Source: Kangiellaceae bacterium
GTDB lineage: Bacteria; Pseudomonadota; Gammaproteobacteria; Enterobacterales; Kangiellaceae
Assembly (NCBI GenBank): GCA_013373015.1
Contig: JABXIQ010000002.1
Location: 1-64,000, forward strand
DNA: 64,000 nt
Direction of reading: 5' to 3'
How positions within the stretch are numbered: position 1 is the stretch's first letter; every line of letters begins with the position of its first letter. The notes under the pieces are model-generated. The model searched no databases. It saw only the letters and a program-made list of their open reading frames with translations, and was not told the origin of the DNA. Below, piece after piece: positions 41,471 through 62,911 of the stretch. Made by a program: the position numbers and the translations under genes.

Positions 41471-41505
41471 ATTTTAGCTTTTGAATTCTTCAAAAAGATA
41501 TTTGC

Positions 41506-41584
41506 GTCATTCCCGCGAAAGCGGGAATCCATTCAAAGGCTTCTATTGTAGTATAATATAGATTCCCGCTTTCGCGGGAATGAC
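41506..41584. repeat. Pair of dRS3-like repeats as a perfect 24-bp inverted repeat
   Basis: GTCATTCCCGCGAAAGCGGGAATC (41506-41529) and its exact reverse complement GATTCCCGCTTTCGCGGGAATGAC (41561-41584), 31-bp spacer. Each arm contains ATTCCC-N8-GGGAAT. Confidence 0.92.
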
Positions 41585-41629
41585 AGAAAAGCCCAGAAAG
41601 GGTTCAGGCCTTGGCCTTTTGGCGCTTTT

Positions 41630-60267: not shown

Positions 60268-60753
60268 GAAGCTGGCCAGACAGTCGCTGCCTGTCATTTG
60301 ATGGGGGGAGGAAAGTCCGGACTTCACAGAGCAGGGTGCCAGGTAACGCCTGGGCGGCGAAAGCCGACGACAAGTGCAGCAGAAAAAATACCGCCGATGG
60401 CCGGGGAGTTGCCTAAAGTAAAGTTAAGAAACTGACGAGGCAAAACTTAGCGAAAACGCGCAGTTTATAATCATAAATGAGCATTTGAGTTAAGATTTTA
60501 ACGAAGTCAGATCGAAAAATTTGCTTTAGGCAACTTCTCGGCACAGGTAAGGTTGAAATGGTGCGGTAAGAGCGCACCGCATTGCTGGTAACAGTATATG
60601 GCGAGGTAAACTCCACCCGAAGCAAGACCAAATAGGGTTCCGTATGGCGTGGCTCGCGTTGGAACCGGGTAGGTTGCTGGAGCTATCGAGTGATTGATAG
60701 CCTAGACGAATGACTGTCCAAGACAGAATCCGGCTTATCGGCCAGCTTCACTA
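60268..60753 (+). ncRNA. rnpB: RNase P RNA (bacterial class A) with expanded P12
   Basis: gaagctggccagacagtc...ggggggaggaaagtccggacttcacagagcagggtgccaggtaacgcctgggcggcgaaagccgacgacaagtgcagcagaa...ccgccgatggcc...caggtaaggttgaaatggtgcggtaagagcgcaccgc...gtaaactccacccgaagcaagaccaaatagg...cctagacgaatgactgtccaagacagaatccggcttatcggccagcttcac; aligns to E. coli M1 RNA throughout. P1 strands gaagctggcc/ggccagcttc are perfectly complementary. Confidence 0.97.
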
Positions 60754-61003
60754 TAATTTTGTCATTTACCACGGCACTCGCTTTGGTCGCCCGCGAAAGC
60801 GGGAATCTGACTATGTTTGAAGTCGTCGTTCATCGAATGACTGTCCAAGACGCTTTTCATAAAGAGAAGCGGCTTATCGGCCAGTTTCACTATTATTTTG
60901 TTATTTACCACGGCACTCGCCTTGGTCGCCCGCGAAAGCGGGAATCTGACTATGTTTGAGGTCGTCATTCATCGAATGACTGTCCAAGACGCTTTTCATA
61001 AGA
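60707..61003 (+). repeat. Tandem repeat of the rnpB 3' end (period 139 bp; about 2.2 copies)
   Basis: cgaatgactgtccaagac at 60707, 60834 and 60973; ggcttatcggccag(c/t)ttcact at 60732 and 60871; ...cgcccgcgaaagcgggaatctgactatgtttga(a/g)gtcgtc(g/a)ttcat at the end of both full copies. Confidence 0.95.
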
Positions 61004-62809: not shown

Positions 62810-62911
62810 TGGGTGCCGCTAAGACAAGGCAAACGATAAAGAAAAAGCGCAGTTTAGTTCCCTAAATGAGCATTTTTCTTTTGAGGCTTAACGCAGTATT
62901 AGCAATACCCA
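62810..62911 (+). repeat. Palindromic/MITE-like element in the mraZ 5' leader
   Basis: Ends TGGGTGCCGCTAAGAC / GTATTAGCAATACCCA form an imperfect inverted repeat; core GAAAAAGCGCAGTTTAGTTCCCTAAATGAGCATTTTTC shared with the rnpB P12 insert. Confidence 0.7.

Follow-up and report, generated by a model that had tools for sequence, protein, structure and literature searches.

Repeats inside RNase P RNA are already known, and two described systems come closest to the one analysed here. In heterocystous cyanobacteria, P12 of the RNA contains STRR (Vioque 1997, NAR 25:3471, as cited in passages of PMC2858038), and the same passages describe P12 as sometimes dispensable, as in the cyanobacteria. In Rickettsia, palindromic elements (RPE) sit in the genes of M1 RNA and tmRNA (Ogata et al. 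2002, according to a passage of PMC2229807). The arm that we describe resembles the STRR case in that P12 is enlarged by a genome-wide repeat in a class A RNA that is normal in other respects, and in that the enlargement appears to be recent and independent in related strains. However, STRR (short tandemly repeated repetitive sequences) consist of short units in tandem, whereas the element here, in a gammaproteobacterium, is long, palindromic and interspersed, is present singly and has a conserved core. In the cyanobacteria the STRR make P12 longer, and they are said not to be needed in vitro. With RPE, which measure 105-146 bp, the element shares a palindromic, dispersed and presumably non-autonomous nature and a place in the RNase P RNA gene, although family and host are unrelated and the likeness is one of gene. 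Moreover, RPE are known chiefly from protein genes, whereas the repeat here lies mostly beside stop codons. These precedents overtake the view of an earlier note on this DNA that a ribozyme arm hosting a repeat is in itself unusual. New in the present case are the host group and the repeat family, as well as a probable second entry within the genus and the way in which DNA-type pairing contrasts with RNA-type pairing. For comparative work the locus provides an essential ribozyme, present in one copy, that harbours a selfish-looking repeat.

The window, by which we mean the whole stretch of 64,000 nucleotides analysed, contains a complete rnpB (Table 1), whose match to the Rfam model RF00010 (E 2e-104, against a gathering score of 100 bits) places it in class A. 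In this alignment P12 is the site of the sole large insertion. The gene is the single match to RNase P RNA in this genome (G000), and we therefore take it as the working copy. Counted between ACCGCC (60390-60395) and AGGTAAGG (60545-60552), P12 is slightly longer than the roughly 140 nt claimed in the earlier note, and the greatly expanded arm is borne out; the continuous basal stem proposed there is also present but longer, with 23 bp in place of about 19. When folded, the region forms one closed arm at -65.1 kcal/mol (z -8.1), with none of 200 shuffles as stable, and when the full-length RNA is folded, the arm pairs only with itself. Since the gene is single and intact, the arm is presumably retained in the mature RNA and the holoenzyme would be active with it.

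Table 1. Features of the rnpB and mraZ regions, in window coordinates.
Feature	Position	Strand	Basis
rnpB, class A RNase P RNA, complete	60268..60753	+	RF00010 317.6 bits, model 1-367; only match in genome
Expanded P12 region, 149 nt	60396..60544	+	congeners 15-26 nt, except G004 with 145 nt
Basal stem of P12 arm, 5' strand, 23 bp	60400..60422	+	fold; inverted repeat
Basal stem of P12 arm, 3' strand, 23 bp	60520..60542	+	fold; inverted repeat
Dispersed hairpin repeat copy in P12 (85-position core model R1)	60429..60513	+	80.2 bits, E 1.3e-15
Second repeat copy in window	62818..62903	+	78.5 bits; 47 nt before mraZ start codon

The interior of the arm had been reported to align almost without gaps with an element upstream of mraZ, and indeed the two are 77% alike over 53 nt with no gap (60434-60486 against 62823-62875). 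A nucleotide search of this genome gave about nine more partial copies of the P12 interior repeat. We describe the family by a covariance model, R1, built from 10 aligned copies with a 26-pair structure, nine of them from this genome, including the one in rnpB, and one from the congener G004. With R1 we count 37 copies in this genome, and each of the 20 genomes of the genus searched has 9-42, figures that rest on the first-look filters of the genome search. The likeness to the mraZ element therefore goes far beyond chance, and the core is not confined to these two loci, which upholds the earlier proposal that P12 hosts a dispersed palindromic repeat. By its score the P12 copy belongs to the R1 family, being itself one of the 10 sequences from which the model was built. 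R1 matches also occur in a few other genera of the same order.

The repeat reaches further still. We find its exact core, GCGCAGTTTA-N4-8-TAAATGAGCATTTT, in at least 118 stretches from named genomes, the hosts among the matches listed being Pseudomonas, Stutzerimonas, Halomonas, Marinobacter, Marinobacterium, Nitrosomonas, Thiotrichales, Desulfobacterota and Bacteroidota. The element is imperfectly palindromic, with a conserved core of about 85 nt and a length of about 130-150 nt when the variable outer arms are included. In other taxa the unit measures about 150 nt and has inverted ends of 16-20 nt (for example TAGCAGGCCGTTGAAAAAC...GTTTTTCAACGGCCTGCTA, or GCAGGCCGTTGAAAAAC, with GGGAACCTCTGAAAAAC as a further end sequence), and many copies, including many from Pseudomonas and Nitrosomonas, have TA at both ends. 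Rfam gave no match at E <= 1 in the window besides RNase P, and none on the element in seven loci from other taxa. Among the papers searched by sequence string, none has both core strings, and the other matches listed were unrelated primers. Carriage by phages found no backing, as the repeat was unmatched in 50,697 phage records; matches occurred in 16 plasmid records, unannotated. We regard it as a cross-phylum hairpin repeat family, absent from Rfam and new here alongside its host group in RNase P RNA; a widespread family of hairpin repeats has in this case been missed by curated RNA libraries. Many copies in Pseudomonas and Halomonas (L124, L139, L144, L152, L183, L203, L223) contain extra structured modules, such as GACTGGGCTCGCACGCGAGG and GTAACAGCCGCAGGCTGGCCCGAAGGGCGAGCG, at similar hairpin positions, as if the element were modular.

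How widespread is the long arm itself? A pattern search for the repeat in rnpB of members of the class found it only in this genome out of 369, with a pattern that misses diverged copies such as that of G004. Among 19 congener genomes searched, rnpB was matched in 18, the one without a match being G002, which is 55% complete. In 17 of these 18, P12 is only 15-26 nt long; thus sister species without the insert do exist, as had been anticipated, and there is no smoothly co-evolving long P12. The second carrier is G004, in whose arm we find a family member (75.6 bits) in the same orientation as in G000, with a fold z of -8.9. These two genomes are never joined in trees of mraZ-rsmH DNA, RNase G protein or RNase G DNA; in the last, a split with support of 100/100 separates them, and none of 200 bootstrap trees unites them. 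A tree of rnpB without P12 does not join them either. A 26-nt P12, GATGGTTCTTAGTTCGCTAAGTTCAC, is identical in G016, on the side of G004, and in G005, G007 and G014, on the side of G000, where that of G008 is one base off. Since the identical short P12 stands on both sides of the genus split, it is the likelier ancestor, and two gains, or one gain and a transfer, then fit better than an inherited long P12. Two other long rnpB genes in relatives are without the element: the extra length of G056 lies in P3, and that of G052 is an assembly gap of N.

The dispersed copies in this genome are single, intergenic and spread across the genome. In most cases within the genus, 13-21 nt separate the 3' edge of R1 from the stop codon of a gene encoded on the other strand, and in tandem contexts 51 copies are antisense against 7 sense (p 2e-9, with orthologous sites that are not independent); the corresponding counts in this genome are 20 and 0. 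In other taxa this orientation bias is absent (14 versus 13). The adjoining genes are housekeeping genes: aceF, lpdA, sdhB, ndk, groEL, guaB, peroxiredoxin, ffh, trpS and leuB. Many sites are shared as orthologues by several species of the genus, in which copies lie behind the same genes, so most copies there look old and the family is mainly a long-resident one. The rnpB copy is an exception, since it carries the strand opposite to that transcribed at the usual stop-codon sites. Some genes lie between two oppositely oriented copies, one before the gene and one after its stop codon; across the genus, genes with two flanking copies include ffh (L253 and L114) and yebC (L089 and L109).

We explicitly compared pairing in the dispersed copies with that of both arms in rnpB. 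The alignment comprises 63 copies, 61 of them distinct; both sides have changed in 25 of the 26 pairs, and none of 500 shuffles reaches the covariation score. Altogether 89.9% of cells pair, in an alignment that was fitted to the structure, while slid controls drop to 33-44%. By itself, this covariation would have mislabelled the family as structured RNA. Yet G.U makes up 1.6% of the standard pairs in dispersed copies, against 27% expected from composition, and it is no commoner than A.C (22 versus 29). Selection for RNA of either strand would favour G.U over A.C or the reverse, so that symmetric counts point to pairing kept as DNA, which could arise from selection on the DNA hairpin or from template-switch correction between the arms. 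The two rnpB arms, on the other hand, have 5 and 8 G.U against a single one-base A.C mismatch. With two conserved G.U pairs left out (11 G.U), they differ from the dispersed copies with a Fisher p of 0.003, a contrast between two arms only and slightly different pair sets. Their excess of G.U, in a sample of two, suggests that these arms evolve as RNA and that the rnpB copies are constrained as such. The count of G.U versus A.C is thus a simple test that separates DNA-level from RNA-level palindromes.

Taken together, our analysis makes it quite probable that the long P12 arm arose when a copy of a DNA hairpin repeat, dispersed in the genome, inserted into the loop of what had been a short P12 hairpin. 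The entry step might have been transposition or recombination, and there would have been two or more such events, or a single one combined with lateral transfer. Presumably the ribozyme tolerates the arm for two reasons: P12 is a peripheral helix, which would point away from the catalytic core, and the insert can close on itself as a hairpin and leave the remaining ribozyme to fold unchanged. After entry the arm would drift under an RNA pairing constraint, with G.U pairs allowed on the transcribed strand, and the dispersed copies would meanwhile keep Watson-Crick pairing as DNA. Of the earlier description of a mobile palindromic repeat, the dispersed repeat stands and the mobility is putative: for the rnpB copy we found no transposase and no clean target-site duplication. 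A fuller reading, in which a cross-phylum DNA-hairpin family, fixed in orientation behind housekeeping stop codons in the genus, entered the RNase P loop twice independently and there switched from DNA-type to RNA-type pairing, is possible, and we put it forward tentatively. Given the relatives with empty sites and the probable second event in the same loop, the tolerance of P12 becomes directly testable.

Could the two arms instead go back to a single ancient insertion in the ancestor of the genus, kept in G000 and G004 and lost elsewhere with the short P12 restored? The inserts do share their loop and orientation, and their outer stems are reciprocal best matches among 62 copies (42.6; next 32.0 and 23.6), which one shared insertion would also explain and which counts against two gains. 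However, their cores are each closer to other copies than to one another, at least two losses would be needed, and on either side of the deepest split these would have to restore the identical 26-nt P12. A short P12, of the form GATGG...CAC, is present in outgroup genera of the family as well (G023, G024, G036), and we consider a single insertion unlikely. We find it rather improbable that selection maintains the arm as a functional RNA domain, such as one that binds a protein or another RNA, which the dispersed copies would supply as well in the form of mRNA 3'-end or leader structures. Such a role would account for the very strong covariation and for copies fixed in place and orientation beside housekeeping stop codons, but the mRNAs contain the complementary strand and rnpB carries the other, the balance of G.U and A.C in the dispersed copies argues that neither strand is kept as RNA, and 17 congeners have an rnpB without the arm. 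Even though P12 is variable in length among bacteria, growth by slippage or local duplication, with the likeness to the mraZ element a convergence of AT-rich palindromes, is very hard to reconcile with an 80-bit match to a model that has 37 copies in the genome and with the exact recurrence of the core motif in other phyla, and we give it next to no credence.

If the arm is a copy of a dispersed repeat, to which class of elements does the repeat belong? Like the bacterial MITEs (ERIC/IRU, Correia/NEMIS, YPAL), it measures about 130-150 nt, has terminal inverted arms and exists in many gene-less copies. It is short, dispersed and non-coding in this genome, where its copies are intergenic, and inverted ends are seen both in other taxa and in the basal stem at rnpB. 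As to target-site duplication, the TA...TA ends are a feature of many copies in other taxa, and none is evident at rnpB. In contrast to those MITEs, however, the ends are less conserved across phyla than the interior core, and a partner transposase was not found. A gene-bearing autonomous version was sought, and no split copies flanking a gene were seen in 118 loci. In the genus the repeat resembles REP, BIME and REPIN as an extragenic palindrome near stop codons, but it is about four times longer than REP and has a core that we take to be unlike the REP consensus. Mobilisation as a RAYT-dependent REPIN found no backing in this genome, which has no match to Y1_Tnp (PF01797); among 13 genomes of the genus searched, 5 have such matches (best E 1e-4 to 5e-13), and these are weak or lacking in most congeners. 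Integron attC sites were likewise rejected, as RYYYAAC / GTTRRRY sites were not seen in copies read by eye and the copies are single, without arrays.

The copy before mraZ is, like that in rnpB, an exception among the dispersed copies: it was seen only in this genome and not found in 14 congeners, among which the intergenic region before mraZ is poorly alignable. The 200 nt before the gene (L290-L304) contain unrelated hairpins that differ from congener to congener, for example TTGAAAGAGCC...CTCTTTCAAG in G005 and G007. This suggests that the region is a turnover hot spot for palindromes.

The window contains other repeats. A different, dispersed-looking palindrome, ATTCCCGCGAAAGCGGGAAT, forms an inverted pair at 41501-41589 of the window. 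The 3' end of rnpB (GAATGACTGTCCAAGAC...CGGCTTATCGGCCAG) is tandemly repeated downstream, at 60731-61001, with two 132-nt copies that are 95% alike at a spacing of 139 and a third, partial copy starting at about 60975. Part of the palindrome, CCCGCGAAAGCGGGAATCT, is also found within these repeats (about 60785-60810 and 60925-60950). Tandem repeats follow rnpB in E. coli as well, and those here are reminiscent of them.
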